Position numbers and translations under genes: made by a program
Part shown: positions 19,615 through 33,129 of the stretch, piece by piece
How positions within the stretch are numbered: position 1 is the first letter of the stretch
Layout: the number at the start of each line of letters is the position of its first letter
Assembly (NCBI RefSeq): GCF_014284125.1
Contig: NZ_JACOFX010000004.1
Location: 62,001 to 126,000 of the forward strand
Direction of reading: 5' to 3'
DNA: 64,000 bases
Origin: Undibacterium umbellatum
GTDB lineage: Bacteria > Pseudomonadota > Gammaproteobacteria > Burkholderiales > Burkholderiaceae_D
The notes under the pieces: model-generated
What the model saw: the letters and a program-made list of their open reading frames with translations, nothing else
Database searches by the model: none
What the model was told of the DNA's origin: nothing

Positions 19615-20346
19615 ATGAAAAATATCTTGGAAGAAGTTTCCACACTCGCCCAGGCAGCCCACATAGAATTGCCGCCCTTGTTGCAGGCACTCTATCGCGA
19701 TGGCTTGACCAGCTATGGCAAAGACAGGGCAGACTGGCAAGCCAACTGGGAACACTACCTGCAAGAATCACCGCCTGCGCTGGCCAGCAGCTATGATTTT
19801 GAATGGCTGGATGCAGAAGCGATTGCAGAAACCATCAAGGGCTGGCTGCACCCTGAAAGCCAGAACGGTCGCAGCTTCTTCCCTTTTGCCCAGTCTGGTG
19901 CAGGTGATGTCTTTTGCCTGACAACGCATGAAGATGAGCATGAAGGTGAATGCGTCGTGGTCTATATCTGGCTTGACTCAGACGCACATACGATAGAGGC
20001 GTTTTCATTTGCTGATTTTATCTACTCCAGACTGGTCACGGCGATGACGGATATGAGCCACTTGCTTGATGACTTATCCAGTGCCGCCAACGCCAGACAG
20101 TGTCTGCTGGCCGATATCCGCAGGTTAAGCGCTTACTTGCCCGCCGACGATGCGACGCGTTTGCAAGCTTATCTTGAACGCCCGGTGATCGAAGTGGAAG
20201 TGACCTACGGTCGCCGCACTGAGCGCGTGCCTTGCCTCATCGCTGATGAAGACTATAAGCTGCTGATGCAAGGAAAGCGCGCAAGCGTGGACTGGCCAGT
20301 GCATATTGTGGCGCGATGGGACGTTCGGCCTGTGTTGCCTGCGTAG
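19615..20346 (+). CDS. SMI1/KNR4 (SUKH)-like protein
   Basis: 243 residues from the ATG at 19615; an upstream extension would read through a REP unit. The segments LPPLLQALYRDGLTSYG, SFFPFAQSGAGDVFCL and TIEAFSFADFIYS follow the SMI1/KNR4 pattern of the SUKH superfamily. Many bacterial SUKH proteins are immunity proteins of polymorphic toxins, but no toxin gene is adjacent. Its TAG stop codon lies inside the GTAGG of the following REP unit. A truncated copy lies directly downstream. Confidence 0.7.
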   Translation: MKNILEEVSTLAQAAHIELPPLLQALYRDGLTSYGKDRADWQANWEHYLQESPPALASSYDFEWLDAEAIAETIKGWLHPESQNGRSFFPFAQSGAGDVFCLTTHEDEHEGECVVVYIWLDSDAHTIEAFSFADFIYSRLVTAMTDMSHLLDDLSSAANARQCLLADIRRLSAYLPADDATRLQAYLERPVIEVEVTYGRRTERVPCLIADEDYKLLMQGKRASVDWPVHIVARWDVRPVLPA

Positions 20347-20547
20347 GTACGATTAGTGTAGCGTAATCGTACGCATGTGGTGTGCAAATAACGAGAGGTC
20401 TCAAGCATCGCATGGATGCCGCTCACTCATCTCAGCGAAAATGTGATAACTGCTTGATTTTACATCACAAAGTGGCGGCAACTATTGAACAGCGTAGAGA
20501 GTTGCTGATGACCATGCGTACGATTACGTTGCACTAATCGTACCTAC
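20343..20547. repeat. REPIN-like element 2
   Basis: 205 bp with inverted REP units at each end (GTAGGTACGATTAGTGTAGC left; inverted copy ending CCTAC right). It is the same length as element 3 at 21000-21204 and differs from it at a single base by eye. It begins within the last codons of the SUKH-like gene. Confidence 0.8.
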
Positions 20548-20551
20548 ATCG

Positions 20552-21018
20552 CTGGTGCAGGTGATGTCTTTTGCCTGACAACGCATGAAGATGAGCATGA
20601 AGGCGAATGCGTCGTTGTCTATATCTGGCATGACTCTGACGCACATACGATAGAGGCGTTTTCATTTACTGATTTTATTTATTCCAGACTGGTCACGGCG
20701 ATGACGGACATGAGCCACTTGCTTGATGACTTATCCAGTGCCGCCAACGCCAGACTATGCCTGCTGGCCGATATCCGCAGGTCAAGCGCTTACTTGCCCG
20801 CCGACGATGCGACGCGTTTGCAAGCTTATCTTGAACGCCCGGTGATTGAAGCGGAAGTGAACTACGGTCGCCACACCGAGCGCGTGCCTTGCCTCATCAC
20901 GGATAATGACTATAAGCTGCTGATGCAAGGAAAGCGCGCAAGCGTGGACTGGCCAGTACATATTGTGGCGCGATGGGACGTTCGGCCTGTGTTGCCTGCG
21001 TGGGTACGATTAGTGTAG
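20552..21018 (+). pseudogene. Truncated duplicate of the SUKH-like gene
   Basis: Positions 20552-20999 align with 19895-20342 of the upstream gene with about 22 differences in 448 bp by eye. The first 280 bp of the gene are missing, so there is no natural start. The first ATG in frame is at 20701 and would give 105 residues. A single A-to-G change at the REP junction turns the TAG stop into TGG, and the frame ends six codons later inside the REP (AWVRLV). Probably not functional, unless expressed as an orphan C-terminal domain. Confidence 0.8.
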
Positions 21019-21204
21019 CGTAATCGTACGCATGTGGTGTGCAAATAACGAGAGGTCTCAAGCATCGCATGGATGCCGCTCACTCATCTCAGCGAAAATG
21101 TGATAACTGCTTGATTTTACATCACAAAGTGGCGGCAACTATTGAACAGCGTAGAGAGTTGCTGATGACCATGCGTACGATTACGTTGCACTAATCGTAC
21201 CTAC
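21000..21204. repeat. REPIN-like element 3
   Basis: 205 bp, identical to element 2 except for G instead of A in the leading GTAGG. It closes the tandem duplication that began at 19895. Confidence 0.8.
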
Positions 21205-23814: not shown

Positions 23815-24582
23815 TTATCCGGCGTTGTTGACTTGCGTATTGTCAGCCTTTTGCTGAGAAGTCCGGCTCATCCACAGCATCGTACAAATATACAAAGAAA
23901 AAAATGCTGTCTGTATGAATTCTGCATACCAAAACAGAAAAATCGACATGGTCAGCAATGACGACGCTGCGCCGTTATTTGTATTCTCTGTCTGTCTTTT
24001 GGGGAACGACAACAAGACTGCCCAACATAACATGATGAGAAAAAACGGGCCTGCGAAAGCCGGGTTCTGCAAACTACGCATTCCCGTCAAAAAGAAGTCC
24101 GTGCCGACTACGCGATACCACAACATGGGCGTACCCAGAATAGCAACGGCTACCCACGCGAAGAAAAAGCCGTCTCTTTGATTTGCAGGCTTTGTTTTCG
24201 AAATCTGAGCTGTTGTGCTGCTGAGTGGCTCGCCCTCACCCCTTGCAAGAGTACTCAATAATCCGAGACCAGCGCCCATGATGATCAAGCCACCCGTGCG
24301 ATGAAACATCGCATAAGTTTGCAGTAAAAACCCGATGGTCAGGAATGAGCACCCCACGCCGACGATGTTTTTTCTTGTCTGCCTCTTTGGCAAGGAAAGA
24401 AGGACTGCACAGAAAAATATGATTAACAGGAAAGGAGCTGAGTATGAAAATTTTTGCAGTCTACGAAAGCCATCCAAAAAATAGTCTGTTCGAAAAAAAT
24501 AGTACCAGACAGGTGGTAGCCAGACAGTCAGTGTCAGCAACCAGGCAATGAGGAGGACTTGTTTGTGCTTGGATATCTGCAT
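23815..24582 (-). CDS. Paralogous membrane protein with internal duplication
   Basis: 255 residues with about eight hydrophobic segments in two similar halves. Each half contains W..P..WY..xxTDxFLxGxRxLQ followed by a segment ending LLSxPKRQT. The N-terminal half is strongly like the starts of the proteins at 24696 and 25819. No signature of a known transporter or enzyme. Likely an inner-membrane protein of a lineage-specific family expanded in tandem. Confidence 0.75.
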   Translation of the reverse strand: MQISKHKQVLLIAWLLTLTVWLPPVWYYFFRTDYFLDGFRRLQKFSYSAPFLLIIFFCAVLLSLPKRQTRKNIVGVGCSFLTIGFLLQTYAMFHRTGGLIIMGAGLGLLSTLARGEGEPLSSTTAQISKTKPANQRDGFFFAWVAVAILGTPMLWYRVVGTDFFLTGMRSLQNPAFAGPFFLIMLCWAVLLSFPKRQTENTNNGAASSLLTMSIFLFWYAEFIQTAFFSLYICTMLWMSRTSQQKADNTQVNNAG

Positions 24583-24695
24583 CAGAGTATTTTATTTTTT
24601 AGCACCGCATTGTGGCGCAATTGATGTTGAAGATTCATGCTTGATTTTTTGCTTAGGCGCTACATGCAGCTTGATAGCTGAGCATCTTGTAGCGG

Positions 24696-25829
24696 CTACT
24701 TTTCTTCAAATCTCAGTCGATAAAAAATCACGCGTACTTCGATTTCACGGCCTGTGGATTTGCTTTTAGAAAAACTGAGGAAGGGGCCGCTACGGCGGGC
24801 GATACTGAGGGCGGCCAGGTCCAGGTCATGGTTACCTGATGATGTTTCAAGCTTTATGCCATCTCCTCTTAAATAGATGCTGCCATCTTCCTTAATCGGA
24901 ATGGAGACGTAGGCCTGGCCCTGGAGTTTCTTGTCGTGCATTGATGGAAAGTTACTGGCGACATAGCTGTCGATTTTCTGGCTCACAGCTTGATAGAAAC
25001 TGGCCAGCTCGCTATCGTTGGTCGTGGGAGTGACATAGACTTTTTTTACCTTGCGGGCAAACTTTCGTGTTTCAAGAAACTCCGCATTCAGCAATAGCTG
25101 CCAAAAAAGCAGAACTACCATGCTCGCATGAAAAAATTCTGGATCAGAACGAAAGAACACCGCAATCGCGAGCAAAGAAGCAGCCGCGCCTGATCTGGCA
25201 TTGACAGTGTGTTTTGCCGGGAAGGACAACAAGACCGCCCAGAATAACATGATGGACACCAAAGGCGCTGCGACAGCCAGGTCTTGCACACCGCGCATAC
25301 TGCGGAGAAAAAAGTCCTTTCCGCTCAAGAATACCCAAAACCAGGGTAAGGCAAGCATGAAGACACTGGCCCAGACGGTTATGGTGCTGAGAATTTTTTT
25401 CACAGGCGCTTTTTTATCGCCTTGATGGAGTTCAGCAGATTTGTCGTCCATCTTCCTGGATACACCTCCTGTCAAGGTATGCAATAAGGCAAACCCGGCC
25501 AGCAGGAAAATGAGGCTGCCTGTCAGTGGCAAACCGGCATAGGTTTGGAGCAGCAAGCCCAGAGTCAGAAATGAACATGCGGCACCGATGATGTTTTTCT
25601 CGGTCCTGTACTTTGGTATCGATAAAATTACAGACCAGGCAAGTATAAGCAGCAGGTAATATACTGAATCCCATAAGTCACGCACACCATAGACGCCGGG
25701 GAAAAAGTAAGCTGTCTGGAAAAAATATTGCCTGGTGGGTGGCAGCCCGACGAGTATCGTCAATGCCCAGACGATGAGGAGGACTTGTTTTTGTTTTGAA
25801 ACCAGCATCGCAGGGTTCTTATTTCCCAT
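24696..25829 (-). CDS. Paralogous membrane protein fused to TonB-like C-terminal domain
   Basis: 377 residues. The first 260 repeat the two-half membrane architecture of the neighbouring paralogue (WALTILVGLPPTRQYFFQTAYF; WFWVFLSGKDFFLRSMRGVQ). Residues 275-377 resemble a TonB/TolA C-terminal domain (AYVSIPIKEDGSIYLRGDGI, then LDLAALSIARRSGPF), which in other proteins binds outer-membrane partners. The combination of polytopic membrane part and TonB_C is unusual. Its start overlaps the stop of the upstream paralogue by 11 bp, so the array is probably one operon. Confidence 0.75.
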   Translation of the reverse strand: MGNKNPAMLVSKQKQVLLIVWALTILVGLPPTRQYFFQTAYFFPGVYGVRDLWDSVYYLLLILAWSVILSIPKYRTEKNIIGAACSFLTLGLLLQTYAGLPLTGSLIFLLAGFALLHTLTGGVSRKMDDKSAELHQGDKKAPVKKILSTITVWASVFMLALPWFWVFLSGKDFFLRSMRGVQDLAVAAPLVSIMLFWAVLLSFPAKHTVNARSGAAASLLAIAVFFRSDPEFFHASMVVLLFWQLLLNAEFLETRKFARKVKKVYVTPTTNDSELASFYQAVSQKIDSYVASNFPSMHDKKLQGQAYVSIPIKEDGSIYLRGDGIKLETSSGNHDLDLAALSIARRSGPFLSFSKSKSTGREIEVRVIFYRLRFEEK

Positions 25830-26232
25830 CTTCGGCCACTGGCTCCCCCCTCACCATACTTAACAGTATCATTCCTGAAAAGAGGATGACGAAGCCGCCA
25901 GTATGATGAAAGAATTCATAATAAATGAGCAAAAAACCCAAACTCATGAGAGAACTACCTGCACCGATAACATTTTTCTGTGTTCTGGTTTTACGTAGTG
26001 TTAGCAGGATAGCCCAGCAAGATATGATCAAGAGGAAAGGGGCTGACACTTTGAAATCCTGCAGGCCACGAAAATTCCCCAGGAAGTAATCAGCCTGGAC
26101 GAAATAAAACCAGATCGGCGGCAACCAGACGAATATGGTCAAGCCCCAGACGATGGATAGAATTGATCTGGTTTTGTTTAACAGCACGGGATTCCTTATT
26201 TGATAATGCTGACTATTATGCATACTTGCCAT
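25819..26232 (-). CDS. Short paralogous membrane protein
   Basis: About 137 residues from ATG 26232; 26223 is an alternative and the frame is open to 26283. It corresponds to one half of the larger paralogues: WGLTIFVWLPPIWFYF, QADYFLGNFRGLQDF and two further hydrophobic segments. It is the first gene of the three-gene array. It may represent the ancestral single unit. Function unknown. Confidence 0.7.
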   Translation of the reverse strand: MASMHNSQHYQIRNPVLLNKTRSILSIVWGLTIFVWLPPIWFYFVQADYFLGNFRGLQDFKVSAPFLLIISCWAILLTLRKTRTQKNVIGAGSSLMSLGFLLIYYEFFHHTGGFVILFSGMILLSMVRGEPVAEDGK

Positions 26233-26445
26233 ATTACCATTACTCACATTAAACACATAGCCAGCCTCCCCCAACCCCCTCACATCATGGCAAATGCCTG
26301 CTTTGCCAACGAATGGATGCTGCGAATGCCCAGTTCACAGCGAAAGCCCGTCTTACCTATGGCAATTGCCTTTAAGTTGGGCGCATTACGACGAGTCCAA
26401 ATCAACGGCTGCGTTTGTCTATTTCTGATTTCTCCCGCGCAGCTA

Positions 26446-26668
26446 CTCCTTCTCCACATACAACTCCCGCGCCATGGTGACCACATCATCGACACTGAGT
26501 TCGCTGAATCAGATTGGCAGCACCGAGTGCCAGCAAATCCCGGTTGGGGGCGATAGTATCGCCATGGCGTATCGCAAAATTGCGGATGGCGCTATAGGAT
26601 TCGGCGTACAAAATCAAGAGCATGGCAATGCTCAGCTCACCGATGCGCAGATACTGGATATAGGTCAC
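26446..26668 (-). pseudogene. Rearranged fragment of the SulP transporter gene
   Basis: Positions 26511-26668 repeat 31682-31838 of the intact SulP gene, and 26446-26510 repeat the last 65 bp of that gene (30897-30961). The roughly 720 bp between the two segments are missing, and the join is out of frame. The fragment reads [17 protein letters not shown] as in SulP and then ends in QRTQCR. It is certainly non-functional. It starts exactly at the stop codon of the upstream DUF2063 gene. Confidence 0.85.
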
Positions 26669-27564
26669 CCCTGCTCAGTTGTGGTGCTCTGGGCGGTCAT
26701 CAGCAGCCCGGTGGCACTGGCGACTGGCAGCCATAGAGATAGTTTCGCATGGATTTCGGTGACGGGCATGTGGCAGCGTCTGGCTGCAGCCTGTGCACAG
26801 TGGCTGAGTGTGCGGGCTTGTCGTCTGGCGGCAGACAGGGCGTAAAACTGCCAGTCCTCAAGTGCATGGCAACTGACGTGGTAGCGGTGGCGGCTGATGG
26901 CAATGCAGGAGGTGGCCCTTACCAATGGATGTTGCGGTCTGGCACTGCCGGGGACTGTGGCAGCGGCCAGCCAGGGCTGGAAGGCGGACAGCGGGTGTGC
27001 AGTGAGCAGCAATCGTGTGGTGGCAGGCAGACTGATGACGGTTTTCGCACCGAGCAACACTGCCATGGGGTCTGGTGCGGTATAGTCGGTTTGTTCCAGG
27101 CCGGGTGCGCGTTGCGCGCAGTTGCGGGCATGTTCTATCAAGGCCAATTCAAGCGGGAAGCGCAGGCTGTGGCCTTCTCTGGCGGCACTGCGCTGGGTGT
27201 GCCGTAAAAACCGGGTGAAGTGGCTGCCCAGATCATGCAGGGAATAACTCGCAGGCGGGAAACTCGCCAGATAGCTGCGGCAAAAGAAGTTGAATAAATC
27301 CTCGCCCAGATGCAGGCGTAAAGCCGGATAATCACTTTGCAGGCAAGCCAGCAGGCGCAACCAGTAGCCATTGGCATACACTGCCAGCCCGGCCTGAACA
27401 TCAGCGACTTTGCCCTTTACCAGCATGGCACTGGCATCACGCCCGTGGGCAATGGTGGCATGCTGCAAACCCGCTGCCAGCCCCTGTGGGTTGGTGATGG
27501 ATGCCAGCATCCATTGCTGTAGCTGCACCAGCGTTGCGGGTTCAGGCTGGTTCGAGATGGTCAT
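26665..27564 (-). CDS. DUF2063 / HvfC-BufC-like MNIO partner protein
   Basis: 299 residues from ATG 27564 ([20 protein letters not shown]), chosen over a longer frame to 27723 that overlaps the neighbouring gene heavily. The N-terminal domain has the DUF2063 pattern: [20 protein letters not shown] and [12 protein letters not shown]. In known systems this family binds the precursor peptide and works with a DUF692 iron oxidase (as BufC, HvfC or MbnC-like partners do). Its start overlaps the end of the DUF692 gene by 23 bp, so they are translationally coupled. Its stop codon coincides with the start of the SulP fragment, so the natural C-terminus may have been altered. Confidence 0.82.
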
Positions 27565-28501
27565 GGCTGTGCTGGCTTGCTGCTGGCAGGTGGAAATCAA
27601 TGGGATGCGCAAACTGCAGACCTTGTTGCTGCTGTACCGCTTGCTGGGGCAACTGTCCGGCGAGCACGGCGCTGGCTTTGGCCAGCTCTGCCAGCAGGTC
27701 TTCGTAATCAGGGACGTTGGCATCCCATTCCAGCAGGGTGGCTACGCCGCCGGTGAGTTTTTGCGCCAGTGCATACAGCTGCCACACAGGAGTGGGCACG
27801 GGTGCGTCGTGGGTGTCGATGAGTAACTCGCCTGCGCGGGTGGGGCCCGCCAGATGGAGTTGCACAATGTGACTGTGCGGCAAGGCGCGCAGGTAGTCGA
27901 TGGCATCAAAACCGTGATTGTGGGCGCTCACATAGACGTTGTTGACATCCAGCAGCAGGCCGCAACCTGTGGCCAGAGCCAGGCGGGAAATAAATTCCCA
28001 CTCTGGCATGGTGGAGTCGGCAAACTGTATATAGCTGCTTGGGTTTTCCAGTACCAGCGGGCGCTGCAATATGTCTTGCACCTGATGCACCCTTTGGATC
28101 AGGTGTTGCAGGCTAGACTCATGAAAAGGCAGCGGCAACAAGTCATGCGAATTATGGCTGCCCAGGCCAGTCCAGCAGATGTGGTCAGACACCCAGACTG
28201 CACTGACGCGGTTTGCCAGCTCCCTGAGCTTGCGCAGATATTCCAGATTGAGCGGGCTGGCGCTGCCTATCGACAGTGAAACGCCATGCATGACGATGGG
28301 CAATTGAGCCGCGAGTTGTTCCAGCACATGGGCGCTGTAACCTGCATGATCAATGAAGTTTTCTGAAATGATTTCAAACCAGTCTACCCTGGCACCGCCA
28401 GCCAGTATGGCTGGCAGGTGCTGGGTGCGCAGGCCAAGACCCATGCCCAGATTGGGCAAACCCAGCCGGGCCTGGCTTGCGCCCTGGCTGGTGCTGTGCA
28501 T
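27542..28501 (-). CDS. DUF692 multinuclear non-heme iron oxidase (MNIO)
   Basis: 319 residues from ATG 28501. The TIM-barrel metal ligands of the family can be seen: His72 (MHGVSLS), His107 (SDHICW), Glu152 (LENPSSY), Asp185 (LLDVNNVYV), His194/His196, His216 (LHLAG), Asp229-His231 (DTHD) and Glu258 (LLEWD). MNIO enzymes such as MbnB, TglH and BufB use a mixed-valent iron cluster to modify cysteine residues of peptide substrates. The upstream ferritin-like gene (40 bp away) encodes a Cys-rich tail that is a candidate substrate. The downstream gene encodes the usual DUF2063 partner. Confidence 0.92.
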
Positions 28502-28541
28502 GATGTCTGGCTGCTTCACCGGGATTGCCTGCACATGATGC

Positions 28542-30485
28542 TCAGTTAGGCGGCAAGACCATGCGCAGCGGGCTTGCTGCAGGCGGGTTGCCCGCAGCAA
28601 CGGGGGGCTGTTGTGCATTCATGACGGCGGTATAAGCAGTCCAGGCTGCAGCGTACACGGTCTGGTTTTGGGTAAAACCAAAGGTGCCAAGCGTAGCCGG
28701 TGGCGTGCTGAAAATATCGGCAATATCCATGGTGCCACCGCTGCCATAAGTCTGGAAAACCGAGATCGGTACGGCACAACCACCTTTTTGATTACAGGTA
28801 TTGTCGCTGGGGGCGATAAAGTTTTTTGAATTCCCTGCCGTATCAATGATGGGGTAACCGCAACCACCCAGGCCCTTGCAGGAGTTGGAGCTGGAGCAGG
28901 TATGGTAAGCCGCCAGCGCAGCGCAGCTATTGCCCGGATTTTGCACACTCAGACCCTGGCAGGCATGGCGGTCGGCATCGGTAATGGGAGGCAAGCTACC
29001 GCTGGCAGACAAATCAGGTGCCTCACCAAACACAGCCCAGTACAGCGACATGCGGTCACCAGAAGCCGCCATGGCCTGGTAGGGGAACCTGGCACTGCTG
29101 CTGGCCCAGTATTGGGTCAGCGCCTTGTTGATGCCATCGACAGCACCTGCCACCAGTTGCCCCAGCAATTGCGGATAATCTTGACCCGTGCGCATGGCGG
29201 TCAATGAGGCAGCGACTTCGTCCGGGCTGGGCAGGTTGGCTTGTGGCTGATAGGCTGATGTCTGCAGGTCAGCACCTGTCCAGGCATTACCTGCGGCATA
29301 CCATTGGGCAAAATTGAGGTAATCAGGTTCTTGCACGACGTTTTGCAGTTCATTAAAACGATCCCAGTGGTCGATGACGTCGCCATGCGAGCGGGCATCG
29401 ACATTGCCTGGTTCGTACGGGTAATCAACTATCAGCGCTGCGCGGTCGGGGCGGAAGCGGGTTTCAACGGCATTGTCGGTGACTTCATCCCGCAAGCCGA
29501 CCGTGGTATCAAGCGAGACGTTTTTATAAATGCGTCGCTGAACCTGCAAACGGAAGCCCTTGAGCAAGTTTTCTACCCCACCCTCACCCTGGTTGACGAT
29601 GCCATTGATCATGTCGATGGCTTGCAGCAAGGCCATGTCGGGGTCACTGGCGCTGATTTTCATGGGCATCAGCGGATACTCATCACGACTATGGCCGCTG
29701 TATTTGCCATTGAAGATATCGCGCTGCTGATCCAGCCTGCTGGCATCAAACAGCTTGGACCACAGCGTTACGCCGCCTTCATACTCAATCGCCAGGTACT
29801 GCATGAAGCACTGGTACATCCAGCCTATGGTGCCAAACTGGGGAAGATTGGCCTCGGTGTTTTTTGCTGTCCAGTTTTCAAAGGGAACGGCAGGGAAATA
29901 GTCGGCAAGCTTGTCGGCCTTGATGTCTGCCCTTGCATCATCATGGCTTTGTTCTATCGCCAGGAAAAGTTGTATCTGCTCTGTTGTCAGCGCAGCCAGG
30001 TTGACTTTCACGTCGGCAAAACTGGTGGTATCGGTGAGGTCAACAATGTGCGGGATGGTTGTCAGTGTCGGCCCATAGCAAGCCCAGCCGCCATTTGTAT
30101 TTTGCAACAAGGTCTTGTCAAAGAATTGCGGCGGCGCGCCCAGCACGGTGGCCAGGTTGGCAGCGAGTTGCAGGTGCAACATCTCCTGGATAAACACACT
30201 GAACACAGTATTGTAGGCACGCTGGTTGGACGTCAGCGTGGTGCCCGCCGTGGTGGACATGCCGGGCCACAAGCGCCCCTGCGCCAGCGGGTTGCTGATC
30301 GTGTGCGTACCCTGTATGGACGACATCGCTGCCAGGTACAAAGGAATGGTGAAATTCTCCACATTCACCGCCGCTTGCGCCAGGGCAAGCACCGCTGCCG
30401 TGTCTTCTGGCAAACAGGAAATGGGGCGGCATTTGACTGGACAAAAACTGGTGGGGATTTGCCCCCTGAGTGCATCATTCGACAT
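28542..30485 (-). CDS. Ferritin-like protein with Cys-rich C-terminal tail
   Basis: 647 residues from ATG 30485, which has a TAGGAG ribosome-binding site. Residues 30-260 form a ferritin-like domain of the PF12902 type, with Glu43 (VENFTIPLY), Glu101 and His104 (QEMLHLQLA) and a later acidic helix ([13 protein letters not shown]). No signal peptide is present. Seven cysteines are gathered at residues 509-570, including [14 protein letters not shown] and NQKGGCA; three more lie at 15, 19 and 24. The CKGxGGC pattern resembles that of bufferin-type MNIO substrates. It is the first gene of an operon with the MNIO and DUF2063 genes. Iron- or copper-related function is inferred, not shown. Confidence 0.85.
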
Positions 30486-30895
30486 ACGGTCTCCTATGGG
30501 TGTGAGGGAAAAACCTTGTTCAGAACAGATGTCAAAATGGTACACCAATAGTCACAAAGATAATGCAAAATAATTATTACATAATGTTAACTTTAAGCAT
30601 TTCTCTGCTTGCCCGAATGGAAAACGCAGACGCGTGATGTGTGTAGTGCTGAACAGTCAGGCCTTTTCGGGTTGCGGAAAATCAGACGACTTTACTCTGT
30701 AGGCATTTGCCATCCAGAACATGGCAATGGACGTAAATCCTGCTGAACCGACATGCGAAAAAAATAAGTACGTGTGGTAAGCGATATGAAATTATCATAT
30801 TACTATTACTCATTGCAATCAAGTAGCGGAAGCAGCGCAGTGTAGTCCAACTTGATCCAGACTTACGCAGCCGGGGCGGCTCTGAGTTAGCCCCA
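30486..30895. other. Intergenic region upstream of the ferritin-like operon
   Basis: 410 bp between the SulP stop and the ferritin-like start. AT-rich around 30545-30605, a likely promoter area for the leftward operon. The segment 30780-30880 shows weak similarity to 26210-26440 next to the SulP fragment, in keeping with an old duplication. Confidence 0.45.
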
Positions 30896-32524
30896 TCAAA
30901 CCTTCTCCACATACAACTCCCGCGCCATGGTGACCACATCATCGACACTGAGTTCGCTGAAACTGCCGATGTGCAGATGGGGTATCTCTGCTCTTTCCAG
31001 CACGATGCGGCTGGCGGATTTGAGGCGGGCCAGCATCAGGTGCTTTTTTTGCAGATAGAGGCTGGCGCAAAAGTCTGAGAGGGCTTCTATGCTGGAGCTG
31101 TCAAGATCGGGGGATTCTTCCAGGCTCATGACGACGACTTTGGCGTCGCTGGCGACGGCATATTGCTTGGCCAGGCTCATGGTGCGTTCAGCATTGCCAA
31201 AGAACAGGCCGCTCTCTGGTCGCAGGATCAGCACGCCGGGGATGAATTTGGCCTGGGGATAATTGACCAGACTGACAAAGTCGTGGCCACCATTTAAACG
31301 GCCAAGGACCGAGATACTGGTATAGGCCAGCCTGCGCAAGAGCATCAGCAAACTGATGCCGATAGCCACCAGCAAGCCATCCAGCACCCCCAGCAAGAGC
31401 ACGGCTACAACCGCAGCCAGGGCCACGAACCTGTCCCTGTGTAATTTGAAGTAAGGATAAAACGCCGATGGCCGCAATGAATGGCTGACCGCGTGGATGA
31501 CAATGGCCGCCAGCACTGGCGCAGGTGTCAGGGCAATCACTGAGAGCATGGTCAGCACGATGATCAACAAGGTCGCTGCGGCGGCCCAGCCTGCCGCTTT
31601 GCTGCGTGCGCCATTGTTTTCATTGGCAGCCGTAGCAGAAAAACCTGCACCCACGGGCAAGCCCTGGAACAGGCCCGACATCAGATTGGCAGCACCGAGT
31701 GCCAGCAAATCCCGGTTGGGGGCGATAGTATCGCCATGGCGTATCGCAAAATTGCGGATGGCGCTATAGGATTCGGCATACAGAATCAAGAGCATGGCAA
31801 TGCTCAGCTCACCGATGCGCAGATACTGGATATAGGTCAAATCTGGCAAGCTGGGGGCTTGCAGTTGCAAATCAATTTTGCCAACCAGTGGCACCCCGTA
31901 CTGGGCCAAGCCCAGCCACTGCCCTGCCAGAATACCCAGGGCCAGCACCAGCAAACCTGCTGGCAGGTAAGAAAAGCGCGCCAGCACAAACAAGAGCAGC
32001 AAGGCCACCAGGCCCACGGCCAGCGACAGCCAGTTCCATTGTGGCAGTTGCTCCAGCAAGGCATAAGAAAAGCGCAGCATGTCAGTATGATGAACATGCA
32101 CCCCGACCACATGGGCAAACTGTTTGATGATGATGACAGCAGACAAACCAAAGGCAAAGCCGCGCAAGACTGGCCGGGCGATAAAGTCAGAAATGCTGCC
32201 CAGTTTGGCCACACCGGCAATCATGAAAAACACGCCCGTCATGATGACCACGCCCATCGACACCAGTATGCGCAAACCCACGTCTCCGTTAGCCATGGCT
32301 GCCGTCGCCGAGGCCAGCACGGCGGCAGAAGATGAGGTGGCTGCGACGATGGCAAAGCGGCTGCTGCCCATCAGGCCATAACAGACCAGGCCCGCAAACA
32401 CGGCGACGATACCTGCCTGCGGCGGCAGATTGGCAATGCTGGCATAGGCCACTGCCTCAGGCAAGAGCAAACCCGCCAGCGACAAACCAGCGATGATGTC
32501 AGACCAGGCCCAGGTTTTGTTCAT
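30896..32524 (-). CDS. SulP-family inorganic anion transporter with STAS domain
   Basis: 542 residues. About eleven to fourteen membrane segments (residues 8-400) include the family pattern PEAVAYASIANLPPQAGI and MGSSRFAIVAATSSSAAVLA near the ion-binding site. A C-terminal cytoplasmic STAS domain (residues 430-540) has VVVMSLEESPDLDSSSIEALSD. SulP proteins carry sulfate, bicarbonate or dicarboxylates, and the substrate here is not clear from sequence. Part of this gene is repeated at 26446-26668 on the far side of the ferritin/MNIO operon. Confidence 0.92.
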   Translation of the reverse strand: MNKTWAWSDIIAGLSLAGLLLPEAVAYASIANLPPQAGIVAVFAGLVCYGLMGSSRFAIVAATSSSAAVLASATAAMANGDVGLRILVSMGVVIMTGVFFMIAGVAKLGSISDFIARPVLRGFAFGLSAVIIIKQFAHVVGVHVHHTDMLRFSYALLEQLPQWNWLSLAVGLVALLLLFVLARFSYLPAGLLVLALGILAGQWLGLAQYGVPLVGKIDLQLQAPSLPDLTYIQYLRIGELSIAMLLILYAESYSAIRNFAIRHGDTIAPNRDLLALGAANLMSGLFQGLPVGAGFSATAANENNGARSKAAGWAAAATLLIIVLTMLSVIALTPAPVLAAIVIHAVSHSLRPSAFYPYFKLHRDRFVALAAVVAVLLLGVLDGLLVAIGISLLMLLRRLAYTSISVLGRLNGGHDFVSLVNYPQAKFIPGVLILRPESGLFFGNAERTMSLAKQYAVASDAKVVVMSLEESPDLDSSSIEALSDFCASLYLQKKHLMLARLKSASRIVLERAEIPHLHIGSFSELSVDDVVTMARELYVEKV

Positions 32525-32724
32525 GTGCTTTGAATGTGGTTGGATGCATGCGCCTTGTGGTGACGAGCACTTATTAGATAAATAATTTATATTTTATGGC
32601 AGAGAGTAGCAGCCAGTATACGCTGCGTGGATAGGGATGGGGGAATTGTCAGGCTGTGGCAGATGCTTGTGAGCATCAGCAAAACTGCATAGACCAGTAT
32701 GAACGAAAGAATGGACGCAGCAAA

Positions 32725-32862
32725 CTACACAATTTTGCTAACCGCGCATATTCCTAAAGAAAAGTCTGTCTGGAAAAAATATTGCCAGACTGGTGGCAGC
32801 CACATCGCTAATGTCACGAACCAGATGGCGATGAGCGCGTCTTTGATTTTCGGGATGTGCAT
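32725..32862 (-). pseudogene. 5' fragment of the paralogous membrane-protein family
   Basis: A 45-codon frame starting at 32862 encodes DALIAIWFVTLAMWLPPVWQ, then YFFQTDFSLGI, clearly like the N-termini of the proteins at 23815 and 24696. It then diverges and stops at 32725. Its start region is intact. It is a remnant of a further copy of the family, now located on the other side of the SulP gene. Confidence 0.7.
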
Positions 32863-32913
32863 TGCGAGAGTCCTATGATTTCCATTCGCGATTGATGACA
32901 TGCGTGGCCAAAG

Positions 32914-33129
32914 CTACAGCCCGCGCCCCGTATCCTTCCGCTCTATCCCGACCAGTTTCAAAGCCAGCACAGCCAGACCCAGCACGATGCCCACAATGAT
33001 GTCAGTGATCTTGCCCGAATAAGGCAGCAGGAAGATGCTGTACAGGATGCAAGCCAGGATGATGACAATGCAAGCCCCGATTATCATCGTTCTGATGATA
33101 GTTGTATTGCCTGCGGGAGGTGTTTTCAT
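32914..33129 (-). CDS. Small two-helix membrane protein
   Basis: 71 residues with two hydrophobic segments (MIIGACIVIILACILYSIFL and ITDIIVGIVLGLAVLALKLV) separated by LPYSGK, and a charged end (ERKDTGRGL). No family recognised. It lies 51 bp upstream of the membrane-protein remnant on the same strand. Confidence 0.6.
   Translation of the reverse strand: MKTPPAGNTTIIRTMIIGACIVIILACILYSIFLLPYSGKITDIIVGIVLGLAVLALKLVGIERKDTGRGL

Follow-up and report, generated by a model that had tools for sequence, protein, structure and literature searches.

A ferritin-like protein with a bufferin-like cysteine tail as a candidate substrate of an MNIO maturase in Undibacterium umbellatum

The MNIO systems with a partner protein of PME-type 1 that have been studied so far install 5-thiooxazoles (PMC12668002), and the bufferin 1 that has been studied carries thiooxazoles derived from cysteine (PMC12452194). 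It is reported in PMC12452194 (Antoine 2025) that some MNIOs modify residues other than cysteine and that PME-type 1 partners correlate with precursors bearing a Sec signal, the signal peptide being suggested as part of the recognition sequence. The same paper proposes protein substrates for MNIOs and notes that the precursors are hard to identify in many MNIO clusters. The present analysis concerns a three-gene cassette in a 64,000-nucleotide stretch of the Undibacterium umbellatum genome (contig NZ_JACOFX010000004.1, positions 62,001 to 126,000), referred to as the window, which encodes a ferritin-like protein (FER), an MNIO maturase and a DUF2063 partner. The initial annotation had placed these three genes on the minus strand and this was confirmed by open reading frames and domain matches; its statement that known MNIO operons carry a short precursor did not hold for all of them, since long precursors, bufferin fusions and TIGR04222 membrane proteins are also described in PMC12452194. 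The cassette is probably a bufferin-type MNIO system in which a ferritin-like protein of the cytosol carries the precursor as its C-terminal tail, which is modified at its Cys residues. No description of the cassette was found in the literature searched and the word 'ferritin' is absent from the main text of Antoine 2025 (PMC12452194).

The cysteine tail of FER and its gene neighbours

The tail was aligned in 81 FER proteins, that of the window and those of 80 related loci, which were the best 80 of 183 relatives from a scan of the species genomes of one collection. Cys 509, 530, 542, 564 and 570 were present in 81/81 proteins while Cys 521 and 536 were present in 80/81, which is the conservation that the initial annotation had expected of homologues adjoining MNIO genes. 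The aligned positions 521-530-536-542 were spaced 9, 6 and 6 residues apart in all 81 proteins and positions 564-570 were 6 apart in 80 of them. The gap from 542 to 564 ranged from 19 to 118 residues, and this linker held an extra Cys in 77 of the 81 proteins and none in the FER of the window. The tail motif reads HxCxGxNxCKxxGGCG ... DNxCxxxGGCAVPI. The AlphaFold2 model of FER was confident for the ferritin-like part and poor for residues 501-550 (block means 34-59), as expected for a flexible segment.

The FER cassette is a widespread family that occurs in several bacterial phyla. By record titles the loci belonged to Pseudomonadota, Actinomycetota (Saccharothrix, Actinophytocola), Bacteroidota (such as Mucilaginibacter and Fluviicola), Acidobacteria and one Ignavibacteria bacterium. 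In 77 of the 80 loci the gene directly downstream of FER, with the same orientation, encoded an MNIO, and in the remaining three the contig broke off no more than about 110 bases from the FER match. The DUF2063 gene followed the MNIO gene in 76 of these 77 loci, the last contig stopping 150 bases past its MNIO match. The gene association is not due to chance, as the gene order is kept across phyla. Measured from the FER stop, the first aligned codon of the MNIO lay at a median distance of 27 bases (77 loci; range -6 to 306), leaving little space for an additional gene. Among 195 genomes of the window's family FER was found in 16, with an MNIO beside it in 16/16, and a search of a protein collection gave 605 FER relatives at E 0.001 among 7996 scored candidates.

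The co-occurrence of tail and MNIO was analysed in a sample of 28 distinct PF12902 places drawn from two sets of genomes, 369 from the class and 79 from the family, both of which include that of the window. An MNIO adjoined the PF12902 gene in all five places with a tail. It was found in none of the 23 places without one, which also gave no tail match, within up to about 6 kb fetched on each side, four of the 23 sitting on short contigs. Tail and MNIO thus go together in this sample, an association that the initial annotation had put forward as a test.

The domain match, the fold and the E...ExxH...E...E...H residues place FER in PF12902. The fold match to CC_0557 (PDB 3hl1) spans residues 15-493 and the conserved ligand-type residues are E43, E101, H104, E178, E301 and H373. 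The N-terminus of FER, judged by hydropathy, is not signal-like: ahead of residue 29 the values reach at most 1.18 (77/81 FER proteins having at least 12 residues there), as compared with a minimum of 1.98 in 25 BufA2 precursors. From this we infer a cytosolic location.

The MNIO scored over the curated PF05114 cut-off with its H/D/E/N pattern conserved, which places it in that family, and it matched PDB 3bww and TglH 8hci. Twenty H/D/E/N positions were kept in more than 97% of 96 FER-linked and more than 90% of 34 Buf2-linked MNIOs. In a quick tree without bootstrap the FER-linked MNIOs formed one side of a branch, next to the Buf2-linked ones (51 rows, SH-aLRT 99). The AlphaFold2 model of the DUF2063 partner (pLDDT 85) matched TglI 8hi7 and NGO1945 3dee, and weakly PqqD 5sxy (E 0.15); its DUF2063 signature and RRE-like domain make it a PME-type 1 partner.

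Resemblance of the tail to Buf2 bufferins

The same genome holds an ordinary Buf2 operon (L001), with an 89-aa precursor scoring 101.6 bits to BufA2 followed by MNIO and DUF2063 genes, and a Buf1 operon (L003) with a DUF2282 precursor, MNIO, DUF2063 and DoxX. The Cys spacing of the L001 precursor is 6-6-7-6 as against 6-6-[19-118]-6 in FER. Three profiles were compared, namely the FER tail alone (A2), BufA2 (A3) and bridge precursors (A4). The A2 search of a collection of 5.8 billion proteins gave 120 proteins at E 0.001. Of the 22 that were examined, nine are complete small precursors, taken as the bridge set from which A4 was built, and the other 13 resemble fragments of FER. The stand-alone precursors matched by A2 included P0283 (E 2.8e-7), P0328 (4.4e-5), P0332 (6.5e-5) and P0359 (8.9e-4), and P0359 also lies above the BufA2 cut-off (67.4 vs 60).

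When A4 was run on this genome, with all 25 candidates scored, exactly two places were obtained, the BufA2 precursor at E 1.3e-5 and the FER tail at E 2.8e-10. Across the phylum A4 gave 17 places in 15 of 299 genomes, many of which had only part of their candidates scored; three were FER-type proteins, the rest BufA2-like precursors by eye, and an MNIO lay inside the fetched stretch at 15 of the 17. The profile-profile scores were 102 for A2-A4, 58 for A3-A4 and 27 for A2-A3, while the maxima for shuffled columns were 21, 18 and 17 respectively, so that each real score exceeded 100 of its 100 controls. These profile comparisons indicate that the FER tail resembles Buf2 bufferins, which belong to a group of small peptides that bind copper, through the bridge proteins only. 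FER is not classed as a BufA2 bufferin, because the model score and a signal peptide were both looked for and neither was found.

The small precursors P0283, P0328, P0332, P0343, P0355 and P0359 carry a GGCAVP motif near the end, and in P0283, P0328, P0332 and P0355 this motif precedes a W..AR..FE..M segment like that at the FER C-terminus. Some of the six have N-termini that are twin-arginine-like by eye, and the source names of three of them are Gemmataceae, Planctomycetes and Thermoanaerobaculia. A divergent PF12902 protein, L145, has a bridge-type bufferin tail and an adjoining MNIO. This MNIO splits first within the FER set of the midpoint-rooted tree, which makes L145 a possible intermediate or second fusion.

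A separate small precursor was sought among 26,380 six-frame stop-to-stop frames of at least 25 aa, taken from the entire window and the 80 related loci. Both A2 and A4 matched one frame per source (81/81), always of at least 500 aa. A3 matched none of the frames, and no frame below 500 aa was matched by any of the three profiles, which would miss a precursor unlike bufferins. The small open reading frames with at least four Cys in window 25000-33000 were also listed and by eye none was precursor-like. The earlier observation that the cassette lacks a small precursor gene was thus upheld, as regards precursors of bufferin type, for the window and extended to the related loci.

Proposed function and alternative explanations

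In the proposed mechanism, the DUF2063 partner would recognise FER without a signal peptide and hand the flexible tail to the MNIO, which would oxidise several tail Cys; the product would most likely be 5-thiooxazoles, like those of bufferins. The modified tail would then form a soft-metal, probably copper, segment tethered to the ferritin-like diiron domain. Such a protein may buffer metal or act in metal redox chemistry in the cytosol, most likely in copper buffering or copper-iron redox handling. The conservation of the tail, the lack of a bufferin-type precursor in the window and the related loci and the co-occurrence of tail and MNIO support the proposal of the initial annotation that the MNIO may modify a large Cys-tailed protein and not a peptide. 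We infer both the modification of the tail and the physiological role. In our judgement the tail is very probably the MNIO substrate; a thiooxazole, assigned by analogy, is the fairly likely product; and copper is the metal that we would favour by a little. There is about an even chance that FER represents a widespread class of MNIO substrates in which a folded cytosolic diiron protein has its own tail turned into a thiooxazole copper site.

Several points weigh against this reading, which is based on sequence and predicted structure. Neither FER nor its tail matched the BufA2 model (NF050166) at E up to 10, and on this genome A2 found FER only and did not reach the BufA2 precursor (62/62 candidates scored). 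The direct profile match between tail and BufA2 covers 17-18 columns with a probability of 29-41%, weak though above controls, and the A2-A4 match, though strong, covers 19 columns. The resemblance therefore relies on the bridges, and four of the five scanned (P0328, P0332, P0343 and P0283) match BufA2 below its cut-off. For the first two conserved Cys of the tail, bufferins offer no clear counterpart, and Cys outside the tail are also conserved (136 in 80/81 and 226 in 72/81 FER proteins); some of the Cys could be structural, with 509 and 521 as candidates. FER lacks the Sec signal peptide that accompanies PME-type 1 partners elsewhere, so its recognition by the partner must differ. No neighbour pointing to copper was noticed, copper genes not having been searched for specifically.

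The weak direct match, the failure of A2 to reach BufA2 in this genome and the shortness of the Cys- and Gly-rich motifs would fit a convergence of short Cys-Gly motifs, with the genes associated through a shared metal-stress regulon only. This is very improbable given the significant database-wide matches to complete small precursors, the scores beyond all shuffled controls, and the order FER-MNIO-DUF2063, seen across several phyla in 76/80 loci, with contig ends interrupting the remaining four. In another alternative FER is a tailoring enzyme whose ferritin-like domain oxidises the MNIO product on an unlinked small precursor, its tail being a zinc or disulfide domain. FER retains the six ligand-type residues found in 9/9 aligned tail-less PF12902 proteins. 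VioB, an enzyme of violacein biosynthesis, also carries PF12902. It is annotated as iminophenyl-pyruvate dimer synthase (PMC12114271), a name that the FER relative P0074 also bears. Small precursors are indeed present elsewhere in the genome, but its single BufA2 match and single DUF2282 match each adjoin an MNIO of their own, and the 80 related loci hold no small precursor of bufferin type. The tail moreover resembles MNIO substrates, and the tail-less PF12902 proteins stand without an MNIO neighbour (0/23), all of which makes the enzyme role unlikely.

The MNIO itself might instead act on other FER residues, such as Asp, Asn or an aromatic residue near the ferritin-like site, or build a cofactor there, with the tail binding metal unmodified. 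Targets other than Cys are reported for some MNIOs (PMC12452194), and three positions differ between the two groups of enzymes, being P, P and W in the FER-linked group (96, 92 and 96 of 96 rows) and mostly V, H and R in the Buf2-linked group (28, 28 and 27 of 34 rows). However, the MNIO scores above the cut-off of the NCBIfam MNIO_BufB equivalog model (349.7 vs 310 bits), the studied bufferin 1 has Cys-derived thiooxazoles, and the tail is what separates MNIO-linked from unlinked PF12902 proteins. We regard an unmodified tail as a rather unlikely case, and modification of the tail Cys is the preferred reading.

Genomic context and comparison with known systems

The features of the cassette are summarized in Table 1. 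An internally deleted copy of a SulP transporter gene abuts the DUF2063 stop (window 26448-26667), and an intact SulP gene lies across the cassette at 30896-32524. The relic consists of two stretches, of 160 bp at 98.75% identity and 61 bp at 100%. The position of the cassette between the SulP gene and its relic suggests an insertion or duplication. Further away, window 19895-21204 covers at least part of a tandem direct repeat of about 96% identity with a start-to-start distance of 657 bp. Three adjacent minus-strand open reading frames at 23815-26283 encode apparently related multi-pass membrane proteins, one of them with a TonB-like C-terminal match just below the Pfam cut-off.

Table 1. 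Coordinates of the cassette features in the window; start codons are the authors' choice from the sequence.
Feature	Position	Strand	Description	Start and end	Pfam score (cut-off), bits
FER	28542..30485	-	PF12902 ferritin-like, 647 aa, C-terminal bufferin-like tail; proposed MNIO substrate	ATG at 30485; last base of stop 28542	PF12902 73.8 (22.3)
PF12902 match in FER	29568..30377	-	residues 37-306		
Bufferin-like tail core of FER	28761..28967	-	residues 507-575; Cys 509, 521, 530, 536, 542, 564, 570		
MNIO maturase	27542..28501	-	PF05114, BufB-type	ATG at 28501; end 27542; second in-frame ATG at 28618	PF05114 349 (25)
DUF2063 partner	26665..27564	-	PF09836, 299 aa, PME-type 1, RRE-like C-terminal part	ATG at 27564, overlapping MNIO stop; end 26665	PF09836 62.1 (27.2)

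The work on MNIOs has been almost entirely on peptides, and the FER cassette offers a concrete, conserved and testable protein substrate. It is an exception to the correlation of PME-type 1 partners with Sec-signal precursors and bears on the signal-peptide recognition idea put forward in PMC12452194, providing a natural system for learning what else a DUF2063 partner recognises. If the proposal is true, substrates that lack a signal peptide are open to recognition by such a partner, and bufferin modules have become parts of enzymes. Modification of the tail would bring a thiooxazole metal site and a ferritin-type iron site together in one polypeptide.

Among the known systems, Buf2 (BufA2 NF050166, BufB MNIO, BufC DUF2063) shares with the FER cassette the order of precursor, MNIO and DUF2063, which mirrors bufABC, and the adjacent BufB-type MNIO and BufC-type DUF2063 genes. 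The Cys spacing, 6-6-x-6 in form, is partly alike in Buf2 and the FER tail, the NxC and GGC-like motifs occur in both, and the bridge precursors match both. Unlike in Buf2, the Cys module of FER sits C-terminal in a ferritin-like protein of 647 aa, the distance from Cys 542 to Cys 564 is 19-118 residues where Buf2 has 7, the N-terminus is not signal-like, and the BufA2 model does not detect the protein. The bufferin fusions of Antoine 2025 likewise join a bufferin module to a larger protein. MerC-Buf1, MerC-Buf2 and Buf1-Cytochrom_C-FGE-sulfatase are reported in few instances, those with MerC having a periplasmic bufferin domain (PMC12452194), whereas the FER fusion is widespread and presumably cytosolic. 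The PF12902 ferritin-like proteins such as CC_0557 (PDB 3hl1) and VioB differ from FER, the 23 tail-less cases examined having neither tail nor MNIO neighbour. The TIGR04222 proteins beside MNIO genes are large like FER, and for a subset a C-proximal Cys-rich segment is proposed as MNIO target (PMC12452194); they are, in contrast to FER, membrane proteins with a PME-type 2 partner or none, and a sequence relation was neither seen nor tested. The captophorins and MNIO-PME1 products described in PMC12668002 (fontiphorin, oxazolin and bufferin 1) resemble the FER cassette in the action of an MNIO and PME1 pair on Cys motifs, with copper binding expected, but their substrates are peptides while FER is a folded protein.

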